39,117 bases of DNA from Myxococcales bacterium (GTDB taxonomy: Bacteria; Myxococcota_A; Polyangia; Polyangiales; Polyangiaceae): positions 1 to 39,117 of the forward strand of contig CANJCO010000014.1 in assembly GCA_947473045.1 (NCBI GenBank). The letters run 5' to 3'. The notes under the pieces are model-generated. The model was given only the letters and a program-made list of their open reading frames with translations, was not told the origin of the DNA and did no database searches. The position numbers and the translations under genes were made by a program. This document shows, piece by piece, positions 205-23,148 of this stretch; within the stretch, counting starts at the first letter, position 1; each line of letters opens with the position of its first letter.

Positions 205-843
205 ATGTTTACGGGCTTGATCGAGTCCACCGGGAGGCTCGCGTCGCGCAGCCGCCGCGGCCCCGGCGCGCGACTCGCCGTCTCGACCACGATCGCGCCG
301 CTTGTCCTCGGCGAATCGATCGCCGTCGACGGCTGCTGCCTGACGGTCGACGCCATCACCGCCAGCGGCTTCGAAGCCGACGCTTCCGCCGAAACGCTCA
401 GCAAGACAACGCTCGGCAGCCTCGCCTTCGGCGCCCGCGTCAATCTCGAGCGCGCGATGCCGCTGGGCGGACGCATGGGCGGACACATGGTGAGCGGCCA
501 CGTCGACGGCGTGGGTGCCCTCACTTCGCGGGAGGCCACCGGCGACGCGATCGCGCTGCGCTTTTCAATGCCGCGCGCCCTCTCGCGTTACGTAGCGCAA
601 AAGGGGTCGATCACCGTGGCCGGCATTTCGCTCACGGTCAACAGCGTGAGCGACGCGAACTTCGACGTCGTCATCATCCCGCGCACCCAGCGCGACACCT
701 CACTCGAAGACCTCACCCTCGGGGGGATGGTCAACCTCGAGGTCGATCTCATCGCGCGCTACCTCGAGCGACTCGTCACGCACGCCGACACCTCCACCGA
801 CCATGCCTGGCTCTCGCGCCTCGAGCGCGGGGGATATATGTAA
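205..843 (+). CDS. ribE: Riboflavin synthase, alpha subunit
   Basis: This enzyme dismutates two molecules of 6,7-dimethyl-8-ribityllumazine to riboflavin and the pyrimidinedione precursor, in the cytoplasm. The 212-aa product begins with the family N-terminus MFTGLIESTG, which fixes the start at 205; a purine-rich AAAAGGGA lies just upstream. A longer frame back to 127 would add a tail unlike the family. Two lumazine-binding halves are visible. The first has VDGCCLTV and, after it, GGHMVSGHVDGVG. The second has VAGISLTVNSV and ends in LIARYLERL. The length is normal for the family. It is the first gene of the operon and its stop is 7 nt before ribBX. I see no clear FMN riboswitch in the short leader. 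Confidence 0.93.
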   Translation: MFTGLIESTGRLASRSRRGPGARLAVSTTIAPLVLGESIAVDGCCLTVDAITASGFEADASAETLSKTTLGSLAFGARVNLERAMPLGGRMGGHMVSGHVDGVGALTSREATGDAIALRFSMPRALSRYVAQKGSITVAGISLTVNSVSDANFDVVIIPRTQRDTSLEDLTLGGMVNLEVDLIARYLERLVTHADTSTDHAWLSRLERGGYM

Positions 844-850
844 AATACAC

Positions 851-1978
851 ATGCCTACGCTCATCGATTTGGACCCCGGCGTCTTCGAACGCATCAGCGC
901 CGCCATCGCCGACATTCGCGCCGGAAAGATGGTCGTTCTCGTCGACGACGAGGACCGCGAGAACGAGGGCGATCTCTGCATGGCCGCCGACTTCGTCAGC
1001 GCCGAGGCCATCAATTTCATGGCGACGCACGGTCGCGGCCTCATTTGCGTGACGCTCACCGAGGAGCAGGTCGATCGCCTCGGGCTGCCCATGATGCACA
1101 GCCCCGGTCGCAGCGGGCCGCCGCTCGGAACGGCGTTCACGGTCAGCGTCGAGGCCCGCACGGGAGTCACCACCGGCATCAGCGCTCCCGACCGCGCCTT
1201 CACCACGCGCCTGGTCGCCAGCCCCGTCTGCCGCGCCGAAGATCTCGTCACGCCCGGCCACGTGTTTCCGCTGCGCGCCAAGAACGGCGGCGTGCTCGTG
1301 CGTACCGGCCAGACCGAAGGCTCCGTCGACCTCGCTCGCCTCGCGGGGCTCACGCCCGCGGGCGTCATTTGCGAGATCATGAACGACGACGGCCTGATGG
1401 CGCGCATGCCCGACCTCGAGACGTTCGCGAAGAAGCACGGACTTCGCATCGTCACGATCGCCGACTTGATTCAGTACCGCCTGCAAACCGAGCGACTCGT
1501 CACGCGCGTGGCCGAGGGCACGCTCGTCCTCGACGCCACCGGTACCGAGTGGCGGTCGTACGTTTATGAGGTCGCCAGTGACAAGCGCGAGATGATGGCG
1601 CTCGTGAAGGGCACCATCACGCCAGGCGCGCCGGTTCTGTGCAGAATGCACACAAGCTCGACGATCGCCGACGTGTTTTCGTCGACGCGGCGTGACGGCG
1701 GCAAAAATCTGCGCGAGGCGATTCGGCGAATCGAAGCCGCCGGAAGCGGCGTCGTCGTTTATCTCCCCGGCCACGAGAGCTGGCGCGCGGAGCTCGAAGA
1801 GCACACCGGCGACAAAGCGGCCGCGGGCACGCTGCGCGAGTTCGGCCTCGGCGCGCAGGTGCTGGCCGACCTCGGCGCGCGGCAACTTCGCCTGCTCACC
1901 AACAATCCACGAAAAATTGCCGGCATCCACGGCTACGGCCTCGACATCGTCGAGAGCGTTCCTCTCGCACTACCCTGA
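851..1978 (+). CDS. ribBX: 3,4-dihydroxy-2-butanone-4-phosphate synthase fused to a degenerate GTP cyclohydrolase II-like domain (RibBX)
   Basis: The N-terminal half (about residues 13-212) makes 3,4-dihydroxy-2-butanone 4-phosphate from ribulose 5-phosphate, supplying the four-carbon unit for RibH. It carries the acidic loop [10 protein letters not shown] (32-41), [25 protein letters not shown] and [12 protein letters not shown]. The C-terminal part (about 215-375) is homologous to GTP cyclohydrolase II but appears dead. The three zinc cysteines of RibA align with Ser270, Arg281 and Gly283, and the catalytic Arg/Tyr helix region is not recognisable. This matches the RibBX variant described in proteobacteria. 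The start at ATG 851 gives the family N-terminus. An upstream frame from 803 would overlap ribE and is less likely. A genuine RibA must be encoded elsewhere. Confidence 0.88.
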
Positions 1979-1988
1979 AGAGCATTCC

Positions 1989-2477
1989 ATGACCCAACAT
2001 CGCACCGTCGAAGGCCAGCTCGTCGTCCCAGCAGGCGCGCGCTTCGCGATCGTCGCCAGCCGTTTCAACCACTTCATCGTCGACCGGCTCGTCGAAGGCG
2101 CGCTCGACGCGATCGCGCGACACGGCGGCGATCCGGCCGCGGTCACGCTCGTGCGCGTGCCCGGCGCATGGGAGGTCCCGCTCATCGTCGGGCGCCTGAC
2201 GGCGAGCAAAAAAGTCGACGCCGTAATCGCCCTGGCCGCGGTGATCCGCGGTTCGACGCCACACTTCGACTACGTCGCCGCCGAGGTGAGCAAGGGGTCG
2301 GCACAGGCGTCGCTCGACTCGGGTGTGCCCGTGACCTTCGGCGTGCTCACAACCGACAGCATCGAGCAGGCCATCGAGCGCGCAGGCACCAAGGCCGGCA
2401 ACAAAGGCTGGGACGCTGCGACCAGCGCCATCGAGATGGTCTCCCTTGGCCGCGCCCTCGACACGGCGGGCTTTTAG
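1989..2477 (+). CDS. ribH: 6,7-dimethyl-8-ribityllumazine synthase
   Basis: It condenses the RibB product with the ribitylaminopyrimidine to give lumazine, the substrate of RibE. The product is 162 aa, typical for the family, which forms pentamers or 60-mer capsids. Diagnostic motifs are [15 protein letters not shown] near the N-terminus, [27 protein letters not shown] (the phosphate-binding and catalytic region), [17 protein letters not shown] and the NKGWDAA segment. The ATG at 1989 follows a GAAGAG purine run with suitable spacing, 10 nt after ribBX. Its place after ribE and ribBX and before nusB is the classic bacterial order, here without ribD. Confidence 0.95.
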
Positions 2478-2480
2478 GCG

Positions 2481-2933
2481 ATGGGCGCACGCAGAAGCGG
2501 TCGCGAGGCCGCGCTTCAAATGCTCTTTCAGGTCGAGGCGTCCACGGCCACCGCCGAGCTCGCGATCTCCCTGTTTTGGCGGCATTTCGAGGCCGATCCC
2601 GAGGGACGCCAGTATGCCGACGAGCTCGTGCTCGGCATCAGCGACAAGCGCGCCGAGGTCGACGCGCGCATCGTCGCTGCCTCCGCCAACTGGCGGCTCG
2701 AGCGCATGACCCGGGTCGACCGCAACGTCATGCGCCTCGGCGCCTACGAGCTGATGTATCGACCCGACGTGCCCCGCGCCGTGATCCTCGACGAAGCCGT
2801 CGAGCTCGCCAAGACGTACGGCTCCGAGGAGTCGAGCTCGTTCGTCAACGGCGTGCTCGCGCGGATCGCCGACGACATCGCCCGCAAAGACGAGGCCCGC
2901 AAAGACGAGGCCCCCAGGGCCGAACGCAGCTGA
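2481..2933 (+). CDS. nusB: Transcription antitermination factor NusB
   Basis: NusB binds boxA RNA together with NusE (S10) and takes part in antitermination on rRNA operons. The 150-aa product is normal in length. It shows the opening GRREA-like helix (RRSGREAALQMLFQVEA), the conserved WRLERMTRVDRNVMRLGAYEL segment in its middle, and the C-terminal helices with ILDEAVELAKTYG and SSSFVNGVLARI. The last residues are a charged tail containing a short duplication (ARKDEARKDEAP). It starts 3 nt after the ribH stop and ends 1 nt before the next start, so it is translationally linked to both neighbours. The ribH-nusB pairing is widespread in bacteria. Confidence 0.94.
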   Translation: MGARRSGREAALQMLFQVEASTATAELAISLFWRHFEADPEGRQYADELVLGISDKRAEVDARIVAASANWRLERMTRVDRNVMRLGAYELMYRPDVPRAVILDEAVELAKTYGSEESSSFVNGVLARIADDIARKDEARKDEAPRAERS

Positions 2934-2934
2934 G

Positions 2935-3480
2935 ATGCAGCTCGAGTTCGTCGCACGCGACCTTCGCCGCATCGACGAGCTCTCCGCGGAGCTCATCGCG
3001 TGCTGCGTGTGGCAGGACGAGCGTCCGTTCCGCGGCCTCGCCGGACTGCTGGACTGGCGCCTCGGAGGCAAGCTCAGCATCCTCGCCCGTTCGGGTTTCA
3101 TCTCAGGGCGCGCCGATGAAGTGCTGCTCGTTCCGGGCCGACCACGCGTGCGATTCGAGAAAGTGCTCATTATGGGGCTCGGAGCGCGCGCCGAGTTCGG
3201 GGAAGGCTCCTTCGCGTTGGCCGTCGATCGCCTGCTTCGCGCGCTCGCGGGACTCAACGTGCGCAGGGCCGTCGTCGAGCTGCCCGGCCGCGGGCACGAC
3301 GCGATCGATCCCGCGCGAGCAACCGAGTTACTCTTCGAGCAGGCCAAACCCGAGGAGCACTTCGATGCATGGTGGCTGGTCGAGTCACCCGAGGCCGAAA
3401 AGGTGATGCGTGCGCGGTCGCGCGACGAGCTTCAGCGCGCACGACGAGCTGCCATGCAACGTGAGGAGACCGGCCTGTGA
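2935..3480 (+). CDS. Stand-alone M17 leucyl-aminopeptidase N-terminal domain protein
   Basis: The 181-aa protein resembles only the N-terminal macro-like domain of M17 leucyl aminopeptidases. It has an opening beta strand, a GLAGLLDWRLGGKLS segment, a LLVPGRPRVRFEKVLIMGLG strand-loop and a following helix with VDRLLRALAGLNV. The catalytic C-terminal domain, with its metal ligands and the NTDAEGRL signature, is missing entirely, so peptidase activity is not expected. The gene follows nusB by 1 nt and overlaps the Nudix gene by 4 nt, so co-translation is likely. A regulatory, ligand-binding or DNA-binding role (as known for the N-domain of PepA) is only a guess. The C-terminus is a basic helical tail. 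Confidence 0.75.
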   Translation: MQLEFVARDLRRIDELSAELIACCVWQDERPFRGLAGLLDWRLGGKLSILARSGFISGRADEVLLVPGRPRVRFEKVLIMGLGARAEFGEGSFALAVDRLLRALAGLNVRRAVVELPGRGHDAIDPARATELLFEQAKPEEHFDAWWLVESPEAEKVMRARSRDELQRARRAAMQREETGL

Positions 3481-4364
3481 CTTCCAGACTGCTCGAGTTC
3501 GACCCCGGCGCTCCGCCGGTGATCGCGCGTGATGCGGCCACCATCATCGTGGCGCGCGACGCTCCCGAGGGGCCCGAAATTTTCTGCGTCGAGCGCAACA
3601 AAAAGAGTCGGTTTTTGGGCGGCGCCATCGTGTTTCCCGGCGGCAAACTCGACGAGGCCGACCGGGACCGCGCCTGGGATGCCCTGTCGTCAGCGCCCGG
3701 GTTCGCGCGTGAATCGTTCGCGCCCGATCCGGCCACGCTGCGCGCGCTCGCGATCGCCGCGCTCCGCGAGACACTCGAAGAAGCCGCCCTGCTGATCGCG
3801 TGCGGCGGAGACGTAACCGGCGGGGACGTGCTCGCGCTGCGCGCGCGCGCGCTGACCGACAGCGCCGCGCTCCCTTCGTTTCTGCGCGATCGCGGCCTGT
3901 TGCTCGACGCCGCGCGCCTCCACCCGCTGGCGCGCTGGGTAACGCCGAGCGCCGAGACGCGGCGCTACGACACGCGGTTTTTCGTCGCGGTGGCGCCGCC
4001 CGGACAAGCCGGCGCACATGACATGCAGGAGACCATGGCGAGTTTCTGGGCGCGGCCGACCGATCTGCTCGCTCGCTTCGACGCCAGCGATGTTCAGCTC
4101 GCGCCGCCGACCCATCGCACGCTCGAGGTGCTCGCAGGCGCTACCAGCGTCGCCGCCATCCTCGCGATCGCCGCCCGCGCGCGGCTCGCTCCCATCTGCC
4201 CGAAGCTGGTGCACGCGCCGAGCGACGAAGGGTCGACCCTCGCGCTGACCCTCCCCGGCGATCCCGAGCATGACGAACCCGAAGCGCTCGTCGAAGGCCG
4301 CTCGCGCTACGTCTTGCGCAGCGCCCACTGGCGCCCGGAGCACGGTCCCGGCGCGTCGCGATAG
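3477..4364 (+). CDS. NUDIX hydrolase with an interrupted Nudix box (NUDT19-like)
   Basis: Nudix enzymes hydrolyse a nucleoside diphosphate linked to another group. This 295-aa protein begins at a GTG that overlaps the previous stop (GTGA, 3477-3480). The strand VFPGGKLDEADRD (about residues 52-64) supplies the first glycines of the Nudix box, and RETLEEAALLI (97-107) supplies the RExxEE metal-binding helix. About 25-30 residues more than the canonical spacing separate them. Insertions in the box are known in the NUDT19 (RP2) group, which acts on CoA derivatives. Substrate specificity here is inference. The rest of the chain is a helical C-terminal extension. It is the last gene of the riboflavin operon and ends 6 nt from the convergent amidase gene. 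Confidence 0.85.
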   Translation: MTSRLLEFDPGAPPVIARDAATIIVARDAPEGPEIFCVERNKKSRFLGGAIVFPGGKLDEADRDRAWDALSSAPGFARESFAPDPATLRALAIAALRETLEEAALLIACGGDVTGGDVLALRARALTDSAALPSFLRDRGLLLDAARLHPLARWVTPSAETRRYDTRFFVAVAPPGQAGAHDMQETMASFWARPTDLLARFDASDVQLAPPTHRTLEVLAGATSVAAILAIAARARLAPICPKLVHAPSDEGSTLALTLPGDPEHDEPEALVEGRSRYVLRSAHWRPEHGPGASR

Positions 4365-4370
4365 CCCCGC

Positions 4371-6104
4371 TCAGCGCCCTTCGCGATACGCCTTGATCGC
4401 GTTGGCGATCGCGTCGGCCAGGCGCTGCTGATAGTCGTCGCTCGCCAGCCGCTCCTCCTCGGTAGGGTTCGAGACGTAGCTGGTCTCGAAGAGCACCGCC
4501 GGCATCCGTGCGCCGACGAGCACGTAAAAGCCCGCGTAGTGAAGGCCGCCATCGCTGACCGCGTCGTATTTGCTGCGAAGCGAAGACATCGCCGACTTCT
4601 GGAGCAGCTCGGCGAGCTTGTTCGAATGCGTGGCCTGATCGGCGAGGCGCATGTTCGCCAGAATCGAGCCGAGCTCCACATTGGCGCCCACGCTGGTCGC
4701 ATTCTCGCGCGCTGCAACGCGCGCAGCGATGTCGTCTTTGGTCGTGTCGAGCACGTAGGTCTCGACACCGTGGCGCGCGTGACTTTCGGCCGCGTTGCAG
4801 TGAATAGACACGAACAGATCGGCCCCCTGCTGGTTGGCGCGGGCCGTGCGCTCCTCTAGCGTCACATAGCGATCGTCGTCGCGCGTGAGCGACACCTCGA
4901 GGCCGTCGCGCACGAGCAGCGCCCGCGCGCGGCGCGCAATGGCCAGCGTCACGTCCTTCTCCTTGATGCCGGCAGGCCCCCTCGCGCCCGCATCATTTCC
5001 GCCCTGGCCCGGATCGAGCGCCACGCTCGCGACCTTTCGCCGCGTGCCGACGCCGGGAGCGCGCCGAGCGACGTCAATGACCACGCGGTAAGGCTCCATC
5101 AGGAAGAACACCTTGCGGTAGGCCTCCTGTCCTTCGAGCGCGAGCAGCACGCGCGCGCCGGTGGTTGTGTGCTCAACCGACACCGATCGCACGATTCCGG
5201 TCGACGGCGTAGCGCGCGCGACGTCGCCCAGCTCGACACCGTCGAGGTCGACGAACGTGCGCAGCGCCCGACGACCGTGCTGCGCATCAACGTCGAGCGC
5301 GTCATCTCCAGCACGAAATGAGGCCTTGTCTGACAAAGTGATCACCACGCGCGCGGCCTCGCGCCCCGACCAGCTCTCCAGCGCGGAAATCTTCGCCGGC
5401 CCCATGCGAGGCACCGACGCGTCGGGCGGTGGCCCGGATCCAAAGGCGCCCTGAGCCTCAGTGGCGGCGTCGACGGCGCGCAGCACCCGCTCCGACGGCC
5501 TGAACGCGGCGAGCAGCTGCAGTTGCGACCTCGCGCGCTCGGCGCACGACGACTCTGACGCGGCCGGCGGCGCGCCCGCATCGACACCAATCTGAATGCG
5601 CTTCATCGCGCGGTAGATTTCGACGTACGTCACCTCCGCGTCCCGCGCGAGATCGCCCGCCAGCTGCGCCGACGCGAGCGCCGAATCACACGCGCCCACA
5701 TACGACGAATCGCGCGCGGCGGACTCGTACGCGCGGCGCGCCTCTTTCGCGTCTTCGTCAACGCCGTAGCGACGCCACGTTCGCTCAAACAAGCGACCGG
5801 CGATCTGGTGGATCTCCGCCGCGCGCTGCGGTGACGGCTCCTTCAAGGCTCGGGCCTCGAGGGTTTGCCCAAGCGCCAGCGCCTCGGGGCGCGGCGGGAG
5901 CGACGCTTCCAAGCTGAGGAGCGCGCGTCCGCGGGCCGCGTCATCGCTCTCAGGCGCCGCCGCGTCCGTCGCCACCCTCGCGCCGTTTCCGCAAGCCATC
6001 ATGCAGGCGGTTGCGGCCGCGATCAGGCCCCGCCGCGCCTCCGACGCCGCAGGAAGAATCGGCCCGCTAGTTGGGCGCTGCGCCTGTGCCGATGTATCCT
6101 GCAA
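4371..6104 (-). CDS. N-acetylmuramoyl-L-alanine amidase, AmiC-like, with helical-repeat, AMIN and Amidase_3 regions
   Basis: Amidase_3 enzymes cut the bond between MurNAc and L-Ala in peptidoglycan, in the periplasm. The 577-aa product has a hydrophobic N-terminal segment with an Arg pair (SEARRGLIAA) and a possible lipobox ending at Cys38. A TPR-like helical region follows (about 50-200), then an AMIN-like beta domain (about 230-345) and an Amidase_3 domain (about 358-577). In the catalytic domain Glu382, His435 (SIHCNA) and Glu539 (VLFETSYVSN) are present. The usual first zinc ligand, His in DPGHGG, is Gln367 here (DPGQGG). The only upstream ATG is at 6104, which leaves 39 nt to the divergent gene. 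Export by Tat, as for E. coli AmiC, is possible. Confidence 0.85.
   Translation of the reverse strand: MQDTSAQAQRPTSGPILPAASEARRGLIAAATACMMACGNGARVATDAAAPESDDAARGRALLSLEASLPPRPEALALGQTLEARALKEPSPQRAAEIHQIAGRLFERTWRRYGVDEDAKEARRAYESAARDSSYVGACDSALASAQLAGDLARDAEVTYVEIYRAMKRIQIGVDAGAPPAASESSCAERARSQLQLLAAFRPSERVLRAVDAATEAQGAFGSGPPPDASVPRMGPAKISALESWSGREAARVVITLSDKASFRAGDDALDVDAQHGRRALRTFVDLDGVELGDVARATPSTGIVRSVSVEHTTTGARVLLALEGQEAYRKVFFLMEPYRVVIDVARRAPGVGTRRKVASVALDPGQGGNDAGARGPAGIKEKDVTLAIARRARALLVRDGLEVSLTRDDDRYVTLEERTARANQQGADLFVSIHCNAAESHARHGVETYVLDTTKDDIAARVAARENATSVGANVELGSILANMRLADQATHSNKLAELLQKSAMSSLRSKYDAVSDGGLHYAGFYVLVGARMPAVLFETSYVSNPTEEERLASDDYQQRLADAIANAIKAYREGR
6071..6100 (+). promoter_or_regulatory. 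Possible sigma70-type promoter for the YbjN-like gene
   Basis: TTGGGC (6071-6076) and TATCCT (6095-6100) are separated by 18 nt, with a predicted start near 6107 and a leader of about 37 nt. It lies inside the first codons of the divergent amidase gene. Assignment is by pattern only. Confidence 0.35.
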
Positions 6105-6143
6105 AGGCCTTGCCTCTTAACCGACCCGCTCTGGAGAACCGCC

Positions 6144-6590
6144 GTGCCCAACGCCATCTACGCTGACCGAGCGTCCGGTCAAGTCTACGCTGACGCGCGC
6201 GCAATGGTCGACGCCTACATTTCGCGGCTCGCCGAGCGCAGCGGCGGCGCCATCGAGCCCCTCGACGCATCGGGCTACACGCAGCTGCGCAGCGGTTCGG
6301 CGTCGGTCGCCATCAATGTGCTCGAAGATCACGGCGTTTTGCTCATTCTCGCGCCGGTCATGAAGGTTCCGGTAGTCGGCCGCGAAGCGCTCTATCAACG
6401 TCTGCTCGAGCTGTCCTTCATCGCCACGAGCGACGCGGCGTTCAGCATCGACAGGAGCAAAGGCGAAGTCTACGTACGAACGCTGCGCCGGCTTTCCGGT
6501 CTCGACTACGAAGAATTCGAAGACCTCGTGACCACCGTTGGCAAGGTCGCCGACGAGTGGGACGACGCCCTCGCTGCCGAATTTCCGTAG
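6144..6590 (+). CDS. YbjN / type III secretion chaperone-fold small protein
   Basis: The 148-aa acidic, soluble product fits the YbjN (CesT/T3S chaperone-like) fold: an N-terminal helix (ADARAMVDAYISRLAE), strands with alternating hydrophobics (VAINVLEDHGVLLILAPVM), a central helix (REALYQRLLELSFIA), a strand pair (AAFSIDRSKGEVYVRTLRR) and a C-terminal amphipathic helix. The GTG at 6144 follows a GGAG at 6133-6136. Family members bind partner proteins or act in stress or motility regulation, but none of these roles is shown here. There is no export signal. It is the first plus-strand gene after the amidase and is followed by a 141-nt gap before the proline-rich gene. Confidence 0.65.
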   Translation: MPNAIYADRASGQVYADARAMVDAYISRLAERSGGAIEPLDASGYTQLRSGSASVAINVLEDHGVLLILAPVMKVPVVGREALYQRLLELSFIATSDAAFSIDRSKGEVYVRTLRRLSGLDYEEFEDLVTTVGKVADEWDDALAAEFP

Positions 6591-11567: not shown

Positions 11568-14500
11568 TCAGCCGCCGACTGCGATGCCGAGCGCAGTGCG
11601 GAGCGCGAAGTACTGCTCGCTGACGCTGAACACCAGGAGCTCCTTCATCTTTTCGGCCGAGCTGAGATCGCCGGGGAGCTGCGGCTCGGCTCCGATGATC
11701 TTCCGGGCAATCTCAAGATCGGCGCACAGCAACAAGCCCGCGCGAGCGCCAGTGATTTCAACCGTCTGCATCCAGCGTTTGAGATCCGCGCGCGCGCCGT
11801 CTTCCATGAACTTCTGCACGACGAGCCGCAGACTGTCGCGCGCGATCGGCTGCATGTGTTTGACGAGTTCAACCGCAGTGAGGTTGACCGCCTGTTCCAT
11901 GTCCGCCGGAACGGCGAAGTCGCTGACGATGAGCTTGATTGCCGCAAAAAGCAGCACTTTCAGCTCGTTCATCGTCGGGAACAGACTTCGGATGTAGTGC
12001 TCACCCCGGTAGGTCGACAGGTGCTTGCTCACGATGAACGTAAGCTCCTGCGGCGAAAATCCGGTGAGCACCGACTGCCCCGCAACGCTCGCCGGAGGCA
12101 CCGCCGCTACGGCCGCGAGCGCGCCCGCGATGTCGTTGCGAATGTACAGCTCCGGAGCTTGAACGCTCAGCACCTGCGCCGCCCAACCGAACGTCTTCGC
12201 GAACGTCACGGTGCTCGTCGCGGGGTCCTGCTTGAAGCGCTTGTCGAGCACGGGCAGCTGGCGCGCCTGACGCAGTTGGTTCGTCTTCGAGATGATCGCG
12301 GCCGGCGTGATCATCTCGAAAATCTTGCCGATGTAGATGTTCTCGTCCTTGTGGAAGAGGTTTTTCACCCACTGTTCGTTGTCGAGGCGGCTCTTGACGG
12401 GCAGCATCCCACGCGGACGGTAGTCCTCGAAGAAGCGCTGCTCATCCGGATCAGCCTTGCGCAGGAACGCGAGCGCGGCCGCCATGCACCAGGCACGGTC
12501 GTGCTGCTGCGTGCGTGTGTAGAGCTTGTAGAGGCTGCGGTACGGATCGATACGCAACGGATCGCGCTGCAACACGATCGTGTGCTCGCCGATGGCGGCC
12601 TCGATCTGATCGGCGGCCTCGTACAGCTCGGCGAGGATCTGCCGCTCAACAGCCTCTTCGGGCTTGTAGCGCGTGGCCATCTTGAAGGCCTCGATCGCGC
12701 TCTTCGAATCGTGGAGGCGATCGCGATAGATGATGCCGAGCGTGTGCCAGAGGTTGAACTCGAGATCGGCGTTCTGGCCAGTCGTCGGCGCGAGCCGCTT
12801 GAGCATTCTGCGAAACGCGCGCTCAAGCTCCTTCCAGTCCTTCCGGGCCGTGAGAATCTTGTTGATGCGCTCGAACGCCTCAAGAAACGTCGGATTCAGA
12901 TCGAGCGCCTGATTGAACAGCTCGAGGGCGCGATCCTGATCGCTCTCCTTGTCGCGGTAGAGCTGCGCCATCGTGTAGATGAACTTGCTCTTGCGCACGG
13001 GATCCCGCTCGAGATCGCTGATGGCCTGAATGGTGTCGATCATGCGCGCCCAGCTTTCGGTCTGCTGGTAGAGCGCGAGCATCGCGTGCAGGAGCGGAAT
13101 GTTGTTCGGCTGAAGATCGCGCGCTTCTTCGTAGGTCTCGAGCGCCTTCGCCGGGTTCTTGTCCTGATCGCGCCAGAGCTCGGCAATCTCGCCGAGCATC
13201 TTGAAGCGCGCGTCGGCTTCGACGACGCTGTCGAGCAGCTGCCGCTTGTAGGCGACCACTTGCTTCCAGTCGCGCAGCTCTGAGTAGAGCGCCACGAGCG
13301 CCTCGAGCGTCTGCGCGTGCGCGCTGTCGGCGCCGAGCGCCTTCTCGAAGTTGTTGATCGCCTGTTTGGCCTGGCCCTGCTCGCGCTTTACGCAGCCGAG
13401 GCGGTAGTAGACTTCGGCGCGCGCCTCGGTCTCGTCTTCGCTCAGCGAGGTCAGAACCTTTTGGTAGTTCGACAGCGCTGCGGCCCAGTCCTTCAGTCGG
13501 AAGCTCACGTCCGCGAGGCCGCGAATCGTCTCCGCCGAGGTCTGGTCAAGCTGCAGCGCCGCGGTGAACGCCTTCAACGCCCTGTCGTCTTTGCCCAGCT
13601 TGATGCTGACCGTGCCGAGCTTGCTTTGCAACTCGTGCTGCTCGTGGCGGTCGCGTTTGCCGCTCTTGCGAACGAGCATCTCGAGCAGCGGCTCGGCAGC
13701 CTCCCAACGCTCGGCCGCGACGTACTCGCTCGCGAGCGGCATCGCCGCGTCTTCGTTCTCGGGGTCAGCTTGAAAAGCGGCTTCCCAAGCAACGATGGCT
13801 GCGTCCTTTTCGTCGAGCTTCTCGCTCCTGAGCTTGCCGATCTCGACCAGCAGCCGCGCGCGTTGACGCGCAGACTGCGTGTGGCTCTGCTCGAGATCCA
13901 TGTACTCTACAGCTTTGTAGTAGTCGGTGTCGTCGAGCGCGATTTGGCGGAGCGAAGCGAGCGTCGGCAAGTGTGCGGGATCGAGCTCGAGAACCTTGTC
14001 GAAGCTGTCGCGCGCCGAGATGCGATCGCCGAGCTTTTCGTCCTGAATCTTGCCAATCCGGTAGTAGGCCTCGACCCGCGTCTTGCTGTCGCTGGTGAGG
14101 TCGGCGACGCGCATCGTGAACTCGATCGACTGCGCGGTGTCGCCCTGCTTTTCGTACAGTTTCGCGATCGCTTCGAGCGCCGGCACGTGGCTGTCGTCGA
14201 GATCGAGCAGGTTGCGATAAGCCTCAATCGCGCGATCGACGTCGACGATCTCTTCAGCAAAGATCTGAGCAACGAAGCCGTAGTTCTCGACCTTGGTCTT
14301 ACGATCGGCCGCGATCGACACGTGGCGCTCGTACGTCGCGACCAGCTCATGCCACTGCCGCAATTTTCGGTAGTTACGCTCGAGCGCGAAGTACGCGTCT
14401 TCGTGGTTCGGATCGATCTCGAGCACCTGCTCAAGACGCGCCGCCGCGAGCTCCGACTTGAGGAACTGCTCCTCGTGAAGGTTGGCAAGCTGCATCAGAA

Positions 14501-17500
14501 TGTCGACGCGCTCGCGCTCCGAGTTCACTACGTCGAGCTGAGCCTCGAGGACCTTGACGAGCTCGGGCCATTCCTGAAGGCCCTCACACGCACGGACGAG
14601 GCCACGCATCGCGTTGACGTTCGACGCATCGATTTCGAGGACCTCGCGATAGACCTGCGCCGCGCGCGCGGTGTCCGCGAGCGTCGTCTCGAAGAGCGAG
14701 CCGACGCGGAGCTTGCTCTGGACTGCGGCGGCGGGGTCGGACTGCGACGCGGCCATGCGAACGAGCACTTCGACGAGCTCGCGGGTCTGACCGCGCGCTG
14801 TGTAAATGCGCTCCAGGTTCTCGAGAGCAGGCACGAAGTTCGGGTCGACCTCGAGCGCGCGCTCGAAATAGGTCATGCCCTGCTCGGTCTGCCCCATGTG
14901 CTGGTCGAGCAGCTCCCCGAGCTCGTTGAGGAGCTCCTTGCGTTCCTCGTCACCCACGGCCACTTCGAGGGCACGGGTGAGCGTCGCGCCGAGCTGCTGC
15001 CAGTTCGCGCTCTTGCGGTGCAACTGAGCCATTTGCCGCAGCGCGCCGACGTTGTTCGGATCGAGCTGAACGATCTGCGCGTAGTACGGCTGGGCATACT
15101 CGGGGCGCCCGAGGTCTTCGCCGTACCACTTGGCGAGGTGCAGGCAGAGGCGGATTTTCTGCTTCGGATCGGTCTGCTCCTGGAGCCACTCGCTCGCGGT
15201 CTTGATGACCTCGTTCCAGCGGCCCGTCGCCTGCGCGATTCGCTCCAAATAGCGCGCCGTCTCGCGATCGTGGAAGTCCTCCGAGAGCGCGTTGATAAGC
15301 GCGTCGAGGGCCTGGCCCTTATCGTCGAGGTGCTCCTCGAACACGCGCGCGATCTTGCGCAGCAGCTCGGCACGCTGAGAGGCGAGCTCGCGACTCTCGA
15401 GTCGACCGAGGAGCAGCTCGACGAGCGGCTCCCAACGGCCGGCGGCCGCATGGAGCTTCTCAAGGGCGTCGAACGCCTCGTCGCTCGAAGCGTCGATCTC
15501 GAGCATTTTTTGATACGCCGCGGTGGCGCCGTCGGGCTCGTGAACCGTGTCAGCCCACAGCGCGGCGATCTCGCGGTATTCGGCGAGCTGCTCGGGCGCG
15601 CCTTCGAATGAAGCTGCGCGCCGCATCTTCACTTCGATCACCTCATGCCAGCGTTCCTCGGCGCGGTAGAGCGCCTCGAGAGCGTCCATCGCCTCCGCGT
15701 CAGCGCCCACTTCGAGCAACTTCCGCCACGCGTCCGCGGCGTCGAAAGGCTGCTGAAGCTGCTCGCCGTACGTCTTCGCGAGCTCGCGGAAAATACCCTT
15801 GAGCTCCGCTTCATCGAGATAGGCGGCCGCCCGATCGACGATCTGGTGGAGCGCTCCGACGAGCTCGTAAGCGTCACCCGCGCGACGCCGGATCGCCGCG
15901 ATCGCACGCAGCGACGCCAGATTCGCCACGTCGATATCGAGAACGCGCATGTACTCTTCAAGCGCCATTTCATCGCGCTGAAGATGCTGACTGAAGACGA
16001 GCGCGCGACGCGTGAGAATGCTCACGCGAGCGTCGTCGTCGATGGTCGCGGCGCCCTCGCGTTCGAGGATTTCGACGAGCTCACGAAAGGCCCCCTGCCG
16101 CTCGTACAGGCGAGAGAGCGCAGAGAGCGCTTCGGTGTCCTCGCCGCGCAGGTCGAGAACGATCTTCCACGTGTCGACCGCGCGCAGATCGTCGCCGAGC
16201 CGATCGGCGCAGAGGTGCGCGATCTTCGAGCGAATGTCAGCCTCGGCAGCGTCGCCCGACGCGTTCGCGAGCTCGCGCTCGTAGACCGCCATCAGCTCGC
16301 CATAAGCCTGCTTCTGTTCGTAGATGCGACCCAGCGCCGCGATGGCGGCGTCATTGGCCGGGTCGAGGCCGTCGAACAGCCTGCGATATACACGCATCGC
16401 GCTGTCAACGTCACCGATGCGCTGCTCGTAGAGCTCACCCAGGCGGACGTGGATCTCGGTCAGCTCGTGCGGCTCACCGCCCGCGCGAAGCCTCTGCTCA
16501 AGCACACCAGCGAGCTCGGGCCACGACTCGATCGACTCATAGATTCGGTCGAGATCCGACAGCGCCTCGGAATCGAGCGGAGCGACCGTGAGCACATATT
16601 TGTATGTCTCTTCGGCCTTGGTGATGTCTCCGAGGTCGTCCTCGAAGAGCTTCGCAAGTCGCTTGCCGATCACAGCCTGAACGTGCGGATCGGAGTGCGC
16701 ACCGAGCACGTCGGCGTACGCGTTGGCGACCGCTTCGAAGCCCTCGTCGACCGACGCCGCCAGACGCGGAAGCTCCTCGGCGCATTTCTCGTCGAGCGGG
16801 AACTCCTTCACGGCGCGCGCGTAGACTTCGAGCGCCGCTGCGCCGTCGATGAGCTTCTCCTCGACCAACTCGGCAATCCGATAATAGGCAGCGAGTCGAT
16901 CTTCCGAGCTCCCCTCGTCGCCATCGGCTCCGCTCGCAGGCGCGTGCGCGAGCTGCGCCTCAAACACGCTTCGAAGCTTCTCCCACTCGCCCGAGGCGCG
17001 GTAAATCGGCTCGAGAATCTCGCCGATCTCGACTTGCTTGGTGCCCGCCGCGAAGAGCGCCTCAAGCGCTTCGACGGTTTCGGTCTGCTCGGGCGCGGCT
17101 GCGAGAACCTCGCGATACGCAGCGATCGCGCCGTCGAGGTTACCGAGGCGCGTTTGGTTGAGCTGTCCAAGCCTGTGCTTGAACGCGAGGATTTCGTCCG
17201 GCGTCTGCCCAACGTCGGCCTCGCGCGAAAGAATAACCGCGAGCTCGGACCATCGCTGCGTCTGGGAATAGAGGCGATCGAGCGCGCTAAGCGACGCCTG
17301 ATTCTCACCGTCCACCTCGAGGGCGCGCTTGTAGCGAATGATCGCCTCCGCGCTGCTCTCGAGCTGGGTCTCGTAGATCTGCGCGATTCGAAGCGCGAGC
17401 TCAACGAAGCGATCGGGATCGCCGGCGAGTCCGGCGAGCGCCGTATCGTAGAGACGGGCGACGTCGCCCCAGCGCTCCGTCGCTGCGGCGAGCCGCTCCA

Positions 17501-20500
17501 GGTGCGCGAGCGTTTCGTGGTTGGAATCGTCGAGCGGCAGCGCGCGAGCGTACGTGTCGAACGCCGCGCCGAGCGCGTCGAGGGCGTCTTCATGCAAGCG
17601 CGCGATGCGGTGGAGCAGCTCGACTTTTTGGAACGGGTCGTCCGCGTGCGCGACTTGAACTTCATACACGCCAACGAGATTCCGCCAGTCGCTCGCAGCC
17701 TCGTAAACAGACTCGAGCACGCCGGCCGCGCCGAGCGTGTTGGAGCCGCCCGCCTTCATGCTCTCGAGCGCGCGGAGCGTCGGCTCGTGCCCAGGCTCCT
17801 GCGCGAGAATGTCGCGATAGAGCTCGATGGCGCGCGGGGCGTCCTCGAGACGCTTTTCGTAGAGCTCCGCAACCCGGTACTGGTAGCTGATCGCCTCGGC
17901 CGCATCGGCGGTCATCTCACCTTGACGGTTGAGAACGCTGAGCAACTCGGCCCAGTTTTGCGCCTGCTCGTAGAGAACGTCCAAGCGCGAAAGCGCCTGA
18001 AGGTCGTCGGGATCGAGCTCGAGGATCTTTTGGTAAGTATCGATCGCCCGCGCAACGTCGCTAAGCTCACGCTCGTATACGGCGCCGACCTGATAGTAGA
18101 TGCGCTTCTTCTCGTCGGCGTCCGAAATCAGGTCGACTTTGCGTGCGTAAACGCTGAGCAGGTCGTTCCATCGTGAGAGCCCGAGGTAGCGCTTGATGAG
18201 CGCGTCGAGCGCGCGCAGGTCGTCTCCGTCAACTTCGAGTACGCGATTGTAGACCGCGATGGCGGCGTCAGGCCTTTGAAGAATGTCTTCTTCGATGGCG
18301 GCCGCCTGAAACAGCGCGTCCTTCTTTTCGTGAAGCGCGTCGACGATCTCGGCCTTGCGCTGAAGAATCGCGGAAAGCTCGGCATAGCGTTCGGAACTTC
18401 GATAGAGGCGCTCGAGGGACTCCGCTGCGACAAGGTTCGCCGGATCGATCTCGAGCACTTTTCGGTAGCGCGCGATCGCAGCGTCGACGTCCGCGAGGTC
18501 TTCCTCATGAATGCGCGCGCTCATCGCATAGAGGGCACTCGAAAGATCGGGGTCCGATGCCGCGGCTGCGCGCTGCTCGTAAACGCCGGCGAGATCCGCC
18601 AAGCGCCCCGCGCCACGCGCGACGCGGTCAAGTGACTGCTGCGTCTGCTCGCTGGCGGCGTCTTCGGCAAGCGCCCGCGCGAGCGTCGAAAACGCCTGAT
18701 TCGCGTCCCCGGCTGCGTCTTCAAAAAGTTGAGCTATCTGGTGGAGAAGTTCCACCTTGCGCGCCGAATCGTCGGCCCGGCTCACCTGCACTTCGTGCAC
18801 GCCAATGAGCTTCTGGAAATCGCCTGTCTGGCGATAAAGCGGCTCGAGCAAGTCGGCAATCGCGAGCGCGTGGGCAGGATCGCGCCCCAATCGTTCGAGC
18901 GCCGCGAGCGCCTCGGCGTTGGTCGGATCGCGATCGAGCACCTGGCGATAGCCCTCGAGCGCGACATCTACCTGTCCCATGTGAGCTTCGCGTAGCCCCG
19001 CAACGCGGAGCATCAGCGCGAGCTGCGCGTCTTCAGTCGCCGCGAGCGCGAGCTGCGCATCCAGATTCTCTGCGAGGTCGGCGTGCATGTTCTCGCGGCT
19101 AAAGAGCCCGTCGAGCGCCGTCAGCGCCCGAAGGCTCGCCGGATCAGTCTCAAGCACTTTTCGATACGAGGCGATTGCCTGTGCGGCACTGCCGAGCCTG
19201 CGGTCCTGCACGTCGGCCATTTGCGCGAGCAGTTCCTCGCGAACTTCGGCGTCTGAGCTCTGGTCAGCGCGGCGCTCCAGCACGCCGACGAGGTCGGCCC
19301 AGCGACCCGTGCGCGCGAAAAGGCGCTCGAGCGCAGCGAGCGCGTCGGAGTCAGCAGCGTCTGCCTCGAGCACGCGGGCGTACGCGGCTGCGGCCGCGTC
19401 GACGCGATCCAACCGCTCTTCGATCCCCGCAACCTTTAGCCAGTATTCGCGCGCGAGCGACGCGTCGGCAACCGCAGCAGCGACCGATTCGTACAGGGCG
19501 ACGAGCGCGGCGTGGCTGCCGGCCGACTCGACGACCTTCTCGATTTCTTCGCGCGTCTCAAGGAGCGACGGATCGTCCTTCAGCGCGCTGGACAGCAGCG
19601 TGAAGGCTCGGCCGAAATCGCCGAGTTGCTCACCTGCGATGCGCGCCGCCTTGCGCAGCAGCTGAACCCGCCGCCCGAGCGCCAACTCGGTCGAAGCGAG
19701 GATCTCGAGAACATCGGCGAGCTTGCTCCACTCGGCCGCTTCTTCGTAAATCGGTTCGAGGATCCCTGCGGCGTCCCCGCGCAATTCCGGATGGGCGAGC
19801 AGTGCCTCGAGAGCCCCCTTCGCCGGCGCGTGCTGCGCATCGAGGTAGAGAATCTCCCGGTAATTTTCGAGAGCGCCGGGTGCATCGCCGAGGTGCTTTT
19901 CGAGCGTCTGACCAAGCTTGTATTTCAGCTCGACGAGCTCGCTCTCGCCTGCGTCCGACTCGATCCGGCGGCGCAAAATAGCCGCGTAATCCTGCCAGCG
20001 ACTCAATTGAGCGTAGAGCGCCTCGACCGCTTCGAGCGCCGGCCCGTCCGTCGGCTCGTCCTCGAGCACGGCGAGGTAGGTCGCGATCGCGCGGTCGACG
20101 TCCTTGAGTTCGGTCTCGTAAAGCTTCGCCAGTTCGAATTGAATTCGCTTCTTGTCGGCAGCGTCGACAGCAAGGTCGCGGCGCCGCTCATAAATCGAGA
20201 GAAGCTCAGATACGCGGCCGACCTGTCGATACAGGCGTTCGAGCGCCTCCAAGGCTACTTCGTTGTCACTCTCGATTTCATATACGGCGCGGTAGACCTC
20301 AAGCGCGTCGTCGACGCGCCCGACCTCGTCCGTGAGCACGCGGCCAAGCGCCAGACGAAGCTCGATCGAAGCCGTTGCGTTGCCATCTTCGACGGCAGCT
20401 GCGATCGCGCGACCGTAGCTCACGATCAGCTTTTCCCACTCGCCGGCAGCCTTCGCCGCACGCTCGGCGTCTACAATCGTCATTTCGTCGTCGGAGGCCA

Positions 20501-22958
20501 GCTCGAAGGCCGCGAGGTAACGCTCGAAGGCCTTCGACGGATCTTTGACCTTGGTCTCGTAGATCGCTGCCAGTTCGCGCAGCAAAGCAAGCCGGGCCGC
20601 AGCGTCGCGCTCGTGCGACAGCTTCACCTCGAGGGCTCCGACGAGGAGCTTCGCGTTGCCGGCTGCCGTGTAGATCGGCACAAGCGCCTCGGCGGCGCGC
20701 AGGTTGTCGGCGTCAAGCTCGAGGACCTTCTCGTACGCCTTGGCTGCCCGGTCGGACTTCTGCTTTTTGTCCGCCCACAGCTCCGCAATCTTGAAGAGCA
20801 TGCCGAGCTTGGCGTCGCCAGCCGTCTCCTTTGCTTCCTGCTGCTCGAGAACGCGAATGAACTCGTCCCACTTGCCGCTCTCGGCGTAGAAAACCTCGAG
20901 GTCATCCCAGCGTCCGAGCGCGAGGTATTTCTTCTTGAGTGCCTCCTGCGCCCGACGGTCATTCGGATCAAGCGTCAGCAGCGTGCGCCACGCGGTGACT
21001 GCTCCGTCTTCGTTGCTCAGGCGCTCGCTGTAAATCGTTCCGAGCTTGTTCAGTATCTGGATGCGAGCCTGATCGTCGTACGTAACCTCAGACTGCTTCT
21101 CGAGCACCTCGGCGAGACGCTCGAAGTCTTTGCTCCGCTCGTAGAGTTGGCCAAGCGCGCCGAGGGCGTCGACGTTCGACGCATCATTGGCGAGCACTTC
21201 CTGCCAAAGCTCGATGCATACTTCGGGGTTGTTGCGAATGCGCTCGGTGGCGAGCTTTGCCGTTTCGAGCAATTTCGCGCCGCGAGCGGCGCCCGCCGGA
21301 AGCGCAGCGGCATCCCTGCGCTGCAGCACCAGCAGCTTCTCCCAATCACGCCGCTTCTCGTACATCGGCCGCAAAAAATCGACCGCGGCAGCGTTGTCGG
21401 AATCGAGCGCGAGCACGGCCTCATAGGCTTTTACGGCCTCGCCCGGATTGGCAAATTTCGACACGTAGAGTTCGGCAGCTTTAGTGTAGAGCGCAACCTT
21501 TTCAGCAACGTCCGGAACGAGCGCCGCGAGCTGCAATACGGTCTTCGCGTATTCGTTAAACCGCTTCGCAGCCTCCTGCTTTTCGGCCGCGGCACGGAGT
21601 TCGTCGATCTTTGCCTGGTCAACTGCGACCGGCTCGGGCGCGGGCAAAGGGGCGGGCTCCTTGGCGATTTCAACAGGCGGCGCATCGGCAGGCGCGACTT
21701 CTGCCGCCTCCTGAGGAACGACGAGCCCCGACTCGGCAGGAGCAGCCACATCACCAATCGACACGTCGTCGAGGCTCACCATTTCGACCAACCCTTCATC
21801 ATCAACATCTTCCGACGCGCCGACCGGCTCTTCGCTCGGCGGGACGAGACGAACCGATTCGCCGATTTGCAGCTCAAATGCCCGAACCTGCGGGTGCTCA
21901 GGACAGCTCGCTGCGAGCCTCTCAAAAGAGGCGCGCGCTCGCGCGAGATCAGCGGTCTCGCGCCAGGCGATCGTGGCTGACTGGGCTCCGTAAAAAGACG
22001 AGACCGCAGCGCCCGAATCAGACGCGAGCGCAGCCTCGGCGAGGCCGAGCACGCGGTCCCAGTCGCCTGCCTTGGTCCCGTAAACCTCGCGCAGAACATT
22101 GAAGGCTCCCTCTTGCGAGGCGTCGCACTTTACCGCCTGCTCAAGGAAACCGGCCCCAACGTCGGCGTTCTGATGGCGCGACGACCAGCGCGCTCCAAAC
22201 GCGCAAGCGAGCGCTCCGCGCTGCTTGAGATCGGGAAGCGACGAGAGCAATTCTGCCTGCGTCGGCTCGAGCTCATCGAGCGCGTTGCGCTCCGTTATGG
22301 CGGACTCGTAGTTGGCAGCTACGTCACGCGACATCGGCGCCGCTGAATAGGCCTTAAGCAGCAGCCCCTCGACCTCGTCGGGAGCGAAACGACGCGCCAC
22401 GCGCGCAGCGCGAAGGTACAGCGTCGCCGACTCGGCAGACTCGCCAGCAGCGCGCAAGAGCGACGCTACGTGGGCCTGCCACGAGTCACCGGCGACCTGA
22501 ACGTCCTCGAGCCGAGCGCTCGCCGCAACGCTGTCGCCGCCGCTCGCCGCGAGGGCCTTCGCGTAGGTCGCCGTCGCCTTGTCGTAGTCGCCCGAGTCGC
22601 AGAGCACGTCTCCGAGCTCCACAAGCAGCGCTGTCGATTGATCCGCCGAACGCGGGGATTTCAGCTCCAGCTCGAGCAGCTTCTGAACCATGTTCAGCTT
22701 GCCGAGGTCCCAGTAGATCCCCCGAGCCGCACCCAGGCTCTCGAGCAAAGCCGGATTGAGCTTGTAGGCGTCCTGATAGTGCCTGAGCGCCTTAACGCCA
22801 GCGAGAAACTTCTCCTCATACAAACGCCCGAGGCGCAGGTGCAATGAGGCCCTGAGCTCAGCTCCGTCAGCTGCAGCAATAGCCTTCTCGAGCTCGTCGA
22901 CCAGCGAACGCCAGTCACGGTTGATCTCGAGGTACGAAAGACGCTCCTGAAGGTCCAT
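11568..22958 (-). CDS. gltI: Giant TPR protein, GltI/AgmK-type gliding motility component
   Basis: The 3796-aa protein is built almost wholly of helical TPR-type hairpins. A recurring unit of about 72-75 residues carries a pattern like A..Y..VLELDP.N..AL.AL followed by GRW.EL..VLE; roughly 45 units can be estimated. The unit array is interrupted near residues 370-465 by an acidic, Pro/Ala-rich linker. The last 280-290 residues are not TPR and look like a separate globular domain. There is no signal peptide (it begins MDLQERLSYLEINRDW), so it is probably cytoplasmic. Myxococcus xanthus AgmK/GltI is likewise a giant TPR protein of about this size in the glt cluster, acting as part of the gliding complex. 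The ATG at 22958 follows GAGGA; the frame extends 20 codons further without a family-like start. Orthology is inferred from size, architecture and neighbours. Confidence 0.8.
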   Translation of the reverse strand: MDLQERLSYLEINRDWRSLVDELEKAIAAADGAELRASLHLRLGRLYEEKFLAGVKALRHYQDAYKLNPALLESLGAARGIYWDLGKLNMVQKLLELELKSPRSADQSTALLVELGDVLCDSGDYDKATATYAKALAASGGDSVAASARLEDVQVAGDSWQAHVASLLRAAGESAESATLYLRAARVARRFAPDEVEGLLLKAYSAAPMSRDVAANYESAITERNALDELEPTQAELLSSLPDLKQRGALACAFGARWSSRHQNADVGAGFLEQAVKCDASQEGAFNVLREVYGTKAGDWDRVLGLAEAALASDSGAAVSSFYGAQSATIAWRETADLARARASFERLAASCPEHPQVRAFELQIGESVRLVPPSEEPVGASEDVDDEGLVEMVSLDDVSIGDVAAPAESGLVVPQEAAEVAPADAPPVEIAKEPAPLPAPEPVAVDQAKIDELRAAAEKQEAAKRFNEYAKTVLQLAALVPDVAEKVALYTKAAELYVSKFANPGEAVKAYEAVLALDSDNAAAVDFLRPMYEKRRDWEKLLVLQRRDAAALPAGAARGAKLLETAKLATERIRNNPEVCIELWQEVLANDASNVDALGALGQLYERSKDFERLAEVLEKQSEVTYDDQARIQILNKLGTIYSERLSNEDGAVTAWRTLLTLDPNDRRAQEALKKKYLALGRWDDLEVFYAESGKWDEFIRVLEQQEAKETAGDAKLGMLFKIAELWADKKQKSDRAAKAYEKVLELDADNLRAAEALVPIYTAAGNAKLLVGALEVKLSHERDAAARLALLRELAAIYETKVKDPSKAFERYLAAFELASDDEMTIVDAERAAKAAGEWEKLIVSYGRAIAAAVEDGNATASIELRLALGRVLTDEVGRVDDALEVYRAVYEIESDNEVALEALERLYRQVGRVSELLSIYERRRDLAVDAADKKRIQFELAKLYETELKDVDRAIATYLAVLEDEPTDGPALEAVEALYAQLSRWQDYAAILRRRIESDAGESELVELKYKLGQTLEKHLGDAPGALENYREILYLDAQHAPAKGALEALLAHPELRGDAAGILEPIYEEAAEWSKLADVLEILASTELALGRRVQLLRKAARIAGEQLGDFGRAFTLLSSALKDDPSLLETREEIEKVVESAGSHAALVALYESVAAAVADASLAREYWLKVAGIEERLDRVDAAAAAYARVLEADAADSDALAALERLFARTGRWADLVGVLERRADQSSDAEVREELLAQMADVQDRRLGSAAQAIASYRKVLETDPASLRALTALDGLFSRENMHADLAENLDAQLALAATEDAQLALMLRVAGLREAHMGQVDVALEGYRQVLDRDPTNAEALAALERLGRDPAHALAIADLLEPLYRQTGDFQKLIGVHEVQVSRADDSARKVELLHQIAQLFEDAAGDANQAFSTLARALAEDAASEQTQQSLDRVARGAGRLADLAGVYEQRAAAASDPDLSSALYAMSARIHEEDLADVDAAIARYRKVLEIDPANLVAAESLERLYRSSERYAELSAILQRKAEIVDALHEKKDALFQAAAIEEDILQRPDAAIAVYNRVLEVDGDDLRALDALIKRYLGLSRWNDLLSVYARKVDLISDADEKKRIYYQVGAVYERELSDVARAIDTYQKILELDPDDLQALSRLDVLYEQAQNWAELLSVLNRQGEMTADAAEAISYQYRVAELYEKRLEDAPRAIELYRDILAQEPGHEPTLRALESMKAGGSNTLGAAGVLESVYEAASDWRNLVGVYEVQVAHADDPFQKVELLHRIARLHEDALDALGAAFDTYARALPLDDSNHETLAHLERLAAATERWGDVARLYDTALAGLAGDPDRFVELALRIAQIYETQLESSAEAIIRYKRALEVDGENQASLSALDRLYSQTQRWSELAVILSREADVGQTPDEILAFKHRLGQLNQTRLGNLDGAIAAYREVLAAAPEQTETVEALEALFAAGTKQVEIGEILEPIYRASGEWEKLRSVFEAQLAHAPASGADGDEGSSEDRLAAYYRIAELVEEKLIDGAAALEVYARAVKEFPLDEKCAEELPRLAASVDEGFEAVANAYADVLGAHSDPHVQAVIGKRLAKLFEDDLGDITKAEETYKYVLTVAPLDSEALSDLDRIYESIESWPELAGVLEQRLRAGGEPHELTEIHVRLGELYEQRIGDVDSAMRVYRRLFDGLDPANDAAIAALGRIYEQKQAYGELMAVYERELANASGDAAEADIRSKIAHLCADRLGDDLRAVDTWKIVLDLRGEDTEALSALSRLYERQGAFRELVEILEREGAATIDDDARVSILTRRALVFSQHLQRDEMALEEYMRVLDIDVANLASLRAIAAIRRRAGDAYELVGALHQIVDRAAAYLDEAELKGIFRELAKTYGEQLQQPFDAADAWRKLLEVGADAEAMDALEALYRAEERWHEVIEVKMRRAASFEGAPEQLAEYREIAALWADTVHEPDGATAAYQKMLEIDASSDEAFDALEKLHAAAGRWEPLVELLLGRLESRELASQRAELLRKIARVFEEHLDDKGQALDALINALSEDFHDRETARYLERIAQATGRWNEVIKTASEWLQEQTDPKQKIRLCLHLAKWYGEDLGRPEYAQPYYAQIVQLDPNNVGALRQMAQLHRKSANWQQLGATLTRALEVAVGDEERKELLNELGELLDQHMGQTEQGMTYFERALEVDPNFVPALENLERIYTARGQTRELVEVLVRMAASQSDPAAAVQSKLRVGSLFETTLADTARAAQVYREVLEIDASNVNAMRGLVRACEGLQEWPELVKVLEAQLDVVNSERERVDILMQLANLHEEQFLKSELAAARLEQVLEIDPNHEDAYFALERNYRKLRQWHELVATYERHVSIAADRKTKVENYGFVAQIFAEEIVDVDRAIEAYRNLLDLDDSHVPALEAIAKLYEKQGDTAQSIEFTMRVADLTSDSKTRVEAYYRIGKIQDEKLGDRISARDSFDKVLELDPAHLPTLASLRQIALDDTDYYKAVEYMDLEQSHTQSARQRARLLVEIGKLRSEKLDEKDAAIVAWEAAFQADPENEDAAMPLASEYVAAERWEAAEPLLEMLVRKSGKRDRHEQHELQSKLGTVSIKLGKDDRALKAFTAALQLDQTSAETIRGLADVSFRLKDWAAALSNYQKVLTSLSEDETEARAEVYYRLGCVKREQGQAKQAINNFEKALGADSAHAQTLEALVALYSELRDWKQVVAYKRQLLDSVVEADARFKMLGEIAELWRDQDKNPAKALETYEEARDLQPNNIPLLHAMLALYQQTESWARMIDTIQAISDLERDPVRKSKFIYTMAQLYRDKESDQDRALELFNQALDLNPTFLEAFERINKILTARKDWKELERAFRRMLKRLAPTTGQNADLEFNLWHTLGIIYRDRLHDSKSAIEAFKMATRYKPEEAVERQILAELYEAADQIEAAIGEHTIVLQRDPLRIDPYRSLYKLYTRTQQHDRAWCMAAALAFLRKADPDEQRFFEDYRPRGMLPVKSRLDNEQWVKNLFHKDENIYIGKIFEMITPAAIISKTNQLRQARQLPVLDKRFKQDPATSTVTFAKTFGWAAQVLSVQAPELYIRNDIAGALAAVAAVPPASVAGQSVLTGFSPQELTFIVSKHLSTYRGEHYIRSLFPTMNELKVLLFAAIKLIVSDFAVPADMEQAVNLTAVELVKHMQPIARDSLRLVVQKFMEDGARADLKRWMQTVEITGARAGLLLCADLEIARKIIGAEPQLPGDLSSAEKMKELLVFSVSEQYFALRTALGIAVGG
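12420..22900 (-). repeat. Diverged tandem array coding for about 45 double-TPR units
   Basis: The coding sequence of the giant protein consists of diverged repeats of about 216-225 bp. Phrases encoding LELDP-type turns and RW-x-EL helices recur at that period. The copies are far from identical in DNA, indicating an old array rather than recent expansion. The only clear interruption is around 21560-21840. Confidence 0.75.
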
Positions 22959-23148
22959 GGATCCTCGTGGCAGTGACGCCAAAACATCCCGCGCGAAGAG
23001 CGCGCAGGGGTCGGCCAAAGGGCCAATCGACGCAGAACGCTAACAGACCGCGCGAGCGAAGTGCGCGCAGATCTTCAGAGAAATTCACGCGCCACATGTG
23101 GGCGCTCCACACACGCGCCAAGCCCGCGCTGCACCCGAAAAACGGAAC

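Follow-up and report, generated by a model that had tools for sequence, protein, structure and literature searches.

The closest described systems are the E. coli amidases AmiA, AmiB and AmiC (structures 8c2o, 8c0j and 4bin), whose zinc is bound by a His-Glu-His set. In AmiA these ligands are His65, Glu80 and His133, with Glu167 as an autoinhibitory latch (numbering from the available part of PMC10268282), and Glu242 is the proposed general base (numbering from the available part of PMC13104611). In Chlamydia AmiA the substitution H67A abolished activity with peptidoglycan binding kept, H67 being identified as the equivalent ligand from the account of conserved ligands in the available part of PMC13104611 and not from an alignment made here. 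The same part of that source states that E. coli AmiA with Glu80 changed does not fully lose activity in vitro. CwlM, an Amidase_3-type homologue and regulator of MurA, has degenerate zinc ligands (His/Arg at ligand positions), no predicted secretion signal, and an essential, experimentally demonstrated regulatory role in mycobacteria that is independent of its presumed active site (available part of PMC4946905).

The window, the whole 39,117-nucleotide stretch of DNA that was analysed (contig CANJCO010000014.1 of the Myxococcales assembly GCA_947473045.1), carries an amidase gene whose product shares with AmiA, AmiB and AmiC the Amidase_3 fold, as modelled, and equivalents of Glu80, His133, Glu242 and the latch Glu. 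A weak AMIN-like region adds to the likeness, as does an FtsEX-EnvC-like operon at another place in the genome. The protein differs from the E. coli enzymes in having Gln367 in place of His65, Asn437 in place of Asp135 (Asn is likewise found in 101 of 115 relatives), and an N-terminal extension with a possible lipid anchor. Orthologous amidases of the order have the same domain layout, and those that were read have His at the place of residue 367; so does the same-genus orthologue (L002), whose domain is 83% identical. With CwlM the protein has in common that it is of the amidase type and lacks a zinc ligand, but ligand loss conserved across a lineage was not found here, as the congener and all other relatives read carry His. 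The features to which we refer are as follows.

4371 to 6104, minus strand: gene for an N-acetylmuramoyl-L-alanine amidase of 577 aa, starting with TTG
4392 to 5024, minus strand: Amidase_3 domain (profile search of the genome, E 3.6e-52)
5004 to 5006, minus strand: codon CAG for Gln367, where the family has its first zinc-ligand His (E. coli AmiA His65)
4959 to 4961, minus strand: Glu382, zinc ligand (AmiA Glu80), retained by alignment with relatives and with the sequences of solved structures
4800 to 4802, minus strand: His435, zinc ligand (AmiA His133), retained by alignment with relatives and with the sequences of solved structures
4704 to 4706, minus strand: Glu467 in AAREN, putative latch residue, corresponding by alignment to the autoinhibitory Glu167 of AmiA
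4485 to 4487, minus strand: Glu540 (AmiA Glu242, proposed general base), retained by alignment
5991 to 6002, minus strand: possible lipobox MMAC, residues 35-38, found by regular expression

Domain architecture and active-site residues

The amidase consists of a loosely conserved N-terminal region, an AMIN-like region that falls below the curated Pfam cut-off (17.4 of 27 bits) and a C-terminal Amidase_3 domain. The match to Pfam Amidase_3 (PF01520) scores 175 bits (cut-off 27; E = 1.9e-51), spans residues 361-571 and covers positions 1-173 of the 174 in the profile. The 577-aa frame contains neither a stop nor a frameshift. The lipobox expression suggests that the protein is possibly a lipoprotein. 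As a separate observation, amidases of the group resemble lipoproteins, in that 18 of the 30 loci tested by regular expression (L001-L030, the studied gene included) satisfy a strict lipobox rule.

At 5004-5006 the plus strand reads ctg, giving CAG and thus Gln367 on the minus strand, within 'VALDPGQGGNDAG', so that the motif DPGHGG becomes DPGQGG. This bears out the reading, made earlier from the sequence only, that the first zinc-ligand His is replaced; its claim that Glu382 and His435 are retained is likewise supported by alignment, leaving the His-Glu-His set of the AmiA, AmiB and AmiC amidases without its first His. That reading also placed a retained Glu at residue 539. The catalytic-type Glu is indeed kept, but it is residue 540, residue 539 being Phe, and Glu is also found at this position in all 115 other near-full-length Amidase_3 sequences. 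A phmmer comparison with the sequences of solved structures matched 12 of them, and in the five whose alignments were inspected (4bin AmiC, 3ne8, 5emi, 8c0j AmiB and 8c2o AmiA) Gln367 aligns with the His of D[PA]GHGG.

A structure model of the domain built from four sequences was of moderate confidence (mean pLDDT 65.8, pTM 0.72; pLDDT under 50 at model domain residues 84-131 and 158-169), and the metal site was not judged from it. The top PDB matches were E. coli AmiA (8c2o, Z 19.5, rmsd 2.9, 191 residues aligned), Nostoc AmiC2 (5emi, Z 18.9, rmsd 3.2, 167 aligned) and E. coli AmiB with EnvC (8c0j, Z 18.8, rmsd 4.1, 184 aligned), three scores that lie within 1 of each other and are to be read as tied. 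The best 24 of the 50 PDB matches listed (Z 19.5 to 13.1) were amidases or phage lysin-type domains, with unrelated folds at Z 9.6 or below. The modelled domain is thus predicted to have the Amidase_3 fold.

Distribution of glutamine at the first ligand position

The studied gene is the only Amidase_3 match in its genome (5.15 Mb in 138 contigs, 99.98% complete, 0.09% contaminated). A second Amidase_3 gene or a duplicate of the stretch was looked for in the genome and none was seen, the other match being about 40 bases long at 86%. A profile search that took in 116 genomes, the studied one among them, returned 144 Amidase_3 matches in 103 genomes; 130 matches were read and 14 weak or partial ones left out. 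L135 and L002 are the same gene, counted once, and 15 gap rows were second pieces of genes already counted. Alignment of orthologues, which the sequence-only reading had proposed as a check, gave a uniform answer: the Gln367 column is His in every one of the 133 further Amidase_3 sequences that were read (129 from relatives and four loci from other phyla), including that of the sister species (G001), the only other species of the genus compared. Glu382 and His435 are invariant across the same set.

Pattern searches, restricted to motifs spelt as D[PA]GQGG and blind to Gln in any other spelling, widened the comparison. When 317 genomes of the class were searched for D[PA]GQGGxDxG, three had a match, and of these only the studied gene is an Amidase_3; with His in place of Gln the pattern was present in 131 of the 317, its sites not each being confirmed as Amidase_3. 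At the level of the phylum (377 genomes), a looser Gln pattern gave 104 sites spread over 80 genomes, against six sites for a backward-read control. A clade of amidases with Gln did not emerge from the 30 of these 104 loci that were read, one being the studied gene and 29 having no amidase profile match. Viral amidases with Gln were considered as well, and of eight viral-contig stretches that match the pattern none matches the amidase profile. A second strain of the species was not found, a wider contig search giving only four remote relatives, and limited word searches of the literature returned no report of an amidase in which this His is naturally replaced by Gln.

The codon at position 367 is CAG here and CAT in the sister species, and over the fetched loci the motif His is encoded by CAC in 102 cases and by CAT in 30; the Gln367 codon lies one base from either. 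Another His in the ligand position, which the sequence-only reading had named as a finding that would count against it, was sought within the domain, and no obvious stand-in was seen. Of the five His residues there, H442 is present in five of 115 relatives, all of which retain the ligand His; the other four also occur in the sister species, where residue 367 is His.

Selection on the Amidase_3 domain

Over 116 near-full-length sequences, Gln367 is the sole departure of the studied protein at the 15 positions conserved to at least 98% and at the 24 conserved to at least 90%. At least one departure from the 98% set occurs in eight of the 116 sequences, and none of the 115 other sequences departs at any of the four catalytic positions. 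Synonymous divergence from the sister species is high (dS about 1), which makes the following pN/pS figures coarse. The domain gave a pN/pS of 0.22, alongside 0.19 for ribAB, 0.24 for ribH, 0.27 for nusB and 0.32 for ribE (part) in the neighbourhood. Looser values were obtained for the N-terminal (0.48) and AMIN-like (0.43) parts of the amidase and for the M17-type (0.42) and Nudix-type (0.44; named by eye) neighbours. The gene adjoining the amidase gave 1.0 from only 58 aligned residues and was set aside as poorly aligned.

With eight outgroups used in turn, 5-10 changes in the domain were unique to the studied species and 9-12 to its sister. Relaxed selection on the domain was therefore not seen by pN/pS or by outgroup counts, and the Amidase_3 domain is under ordinary purifying selection. 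On a rough estimate, a branch free of constraint for a tenth of its length should have gathered about 20 additional changes, and for this reason any loss of function would have to be recent.

Partner proteins and hydrolases of the genome

An ftsE-ftsX-envC-like operon is found elsewhere in the genome (G000:C18, L184 1886-4524), with all three frames open. It encodes an FtsE-like ABC protein (ABC_tran), FtsX (FtsX_ECD, FtsX) and an M23 EnvC-like protein; by eye, the customary M23 metal motifs are missing from the LytM domain of the latter, which appears catalytically degenerate. In 28 genomes tried, the EnvC-like protein was matched in 15 of 15 with Amidase_3 and in 8 of 13 without (E 1e-114 to 6e-5). 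The presence of this partner supports use of the amidase but does not prove it, since those eight genomes have the match and no Amidase_3.

Two further M23 proteins lie above the cut-off with HxxxD and HxH-type motifs, and a fourth lies below it. The genome also encodes one Amidase_2 protein, in which the His and Asp-type motifs are apparently intact; the M23 and Amidase_2 motifs were judged by eye against what we take to be the consensus. A 522-aa frame with an Amidase_2 domain (L136, G000:C31) has a C-terminal tail that ends in RRRRRQS and looks like a sorting tail, presumably of the kind named MYXO-CTERM.

Origin and likely consequence of Gln367

Gln367 is most likely a private single-base change in an otherwise normal division amidase of the AmiB/AmiC type, arising either as an error in the called base or as a loss-of-function or strain variant of very recent date. 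The likeliest single reading, to which our judgement gives about an even chance, is a consensus base error with CAG written for CAC or CAT; a real and very recent loss-of-function or strain variant is, again by judgement, clearly less likely. As read from the sequence, Gln367 is most likely not an old, evolved feature of a pseudo-amidase, because the Gln is unique, one base accounts for it, the rest of the domain is intact, purifying selection is ordinary and the operon is retained. As counterpoints, a one-base change that leaves the frame open and otherwise intact fits a real allele as well, and departing once from the 98% set is not unusual in itself, as the eight sequences noted above demonstrate.

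The AmiB/AmiC-type mechanism, drawn from family knowledge and from inference, would make the protein an exported and possibly lipid-anchored zinc hydrolase held inactive by a blocking helix. The LytM factor of FtsEX-EnvC would switch the amidase on, and the active enzyme would then cut the MurNAc-L-Ala bond and allow the septum to split. Upon this the one-base change from CAY to CAG, present in the studied assembly alone, would alter the first zinc ligand. By analogy with the Chlamydia enzyme, the protein as written, if real, would be expected to bind zinc poorly and to hydrolyse nothing while still binding peptidoglycan, the precedent being a change to Ala and not to Gln.

A real change might be the first decay step in a lineage that is losing its amidase, a tentative reading that is contained within the preferred explanation as its lesser part. 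Amidase_3 matches are absent from 13 of the 116 genomes, including both sampled species of the g13 group and both of g21, and a third species of each group is also without the His pattern. Amidase_3 is dispensable in the order on this evidence, division amidases seem to have been lost repeatedly, and a real loss is plausible because the gene can evidently be lost. Decay is opposed by the open EnvC-like activator operon, by the 577-aa frame free of stops and frameshifts, and by the normal gene of the sister species. Among the genomes with no Amidase_3 match, G013, G054, G021, G059, G005, G050, G071, G092 and G093 are 95-100% complete.

It is unlikely, on our assessment, that the sole Amidase_3 protein of this species stably has Gln at the first ligand, under selection and coupled to FtsEX-EnvC, as either a pseudo-amidase or a Gln-ligated enzyme with the septum split by another hydrolase. 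The first of these forms, a maintained pseudo-amidase that no longer catalyses and is retained, like CwlM, for peptidoglycan binding or regulation, we hold to be very unlikely. The substitution should abolish catalysis, Chlamydia AmiA H67A still binds peptidoglycan (available part of PMC13104611), CwlM is a natural precedent with degenerate ligands (available part of PMC4946905), the domain is under purifying selection and the Amidase_2 protein of the genome could supply amidase activity; yet the change affects one ligand by one base in one genome, the sister is intact, and the other catalytic residues, Glu540 among them, are kept where drift would be expected in an old pseudo-enzyme. The sequence-only reading had offered an enzyme that binds metal differently, is weakly active or is a pseudo-amidase recognising peptidoglycan. 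Its premise stands, in that a ligand His is replaced and precedent predicts lost activity with peptidoglycan binding kept, but an evolved alternative of any of these kinds is disfavoured by a single base in one assembly, a domain otherwise intact and selection that looks unaltered.

The side-chain oxygen of Gln can in principle donate to a metal. An active amidase using Gln as a zinc ligand, or another metal, is nevertheless the least probable reading of all, since the intact remaining ligands and the tolerance of some ligand loss suggested by the Glu80-altered E. coli AmiA in vitro (available part of PMC13104611) are set against the presence of His in each of the 133 further sequences read, the activity abolished by the matching His-to-Ala change in Chlamydia AmiA (same part of PMC13104611) and a compensating His that was not seen.

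Under the preferred explanation, a private single-base change, the locus as it stands encodes a normal division amidase whose point change may well not be real, and it is of little consequence. The case does show the value of comparing the nearest species first whenever a single assembly presents a striking substitution in an active site. Were the Gln fixed, the species would offer a rare natural experiment on whether an amidase of the FtsEX-EnvC type can do its work with peptidoglycan hydrolysis lost.

Gene neighbourhood

The contig of the sister species is collinear over positions 438-6571 of the window, a stretch that includes ribE (part), ribAB, ribH and nusB. After nusB, at 2935-3480 on the plus strand, lies a free-standing 181-aa protein of the Peptidase_M17 N-terminal type, in which the catalytic aminopeptidase domain was not matched; the sister species has a counterpart with 61% identity. 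Further along, at 11568-23018 on the minus strand, the window contains an open frame of 3816 aa, the translation of which resembles, by eye, repeats of the tetratricopeptide type.
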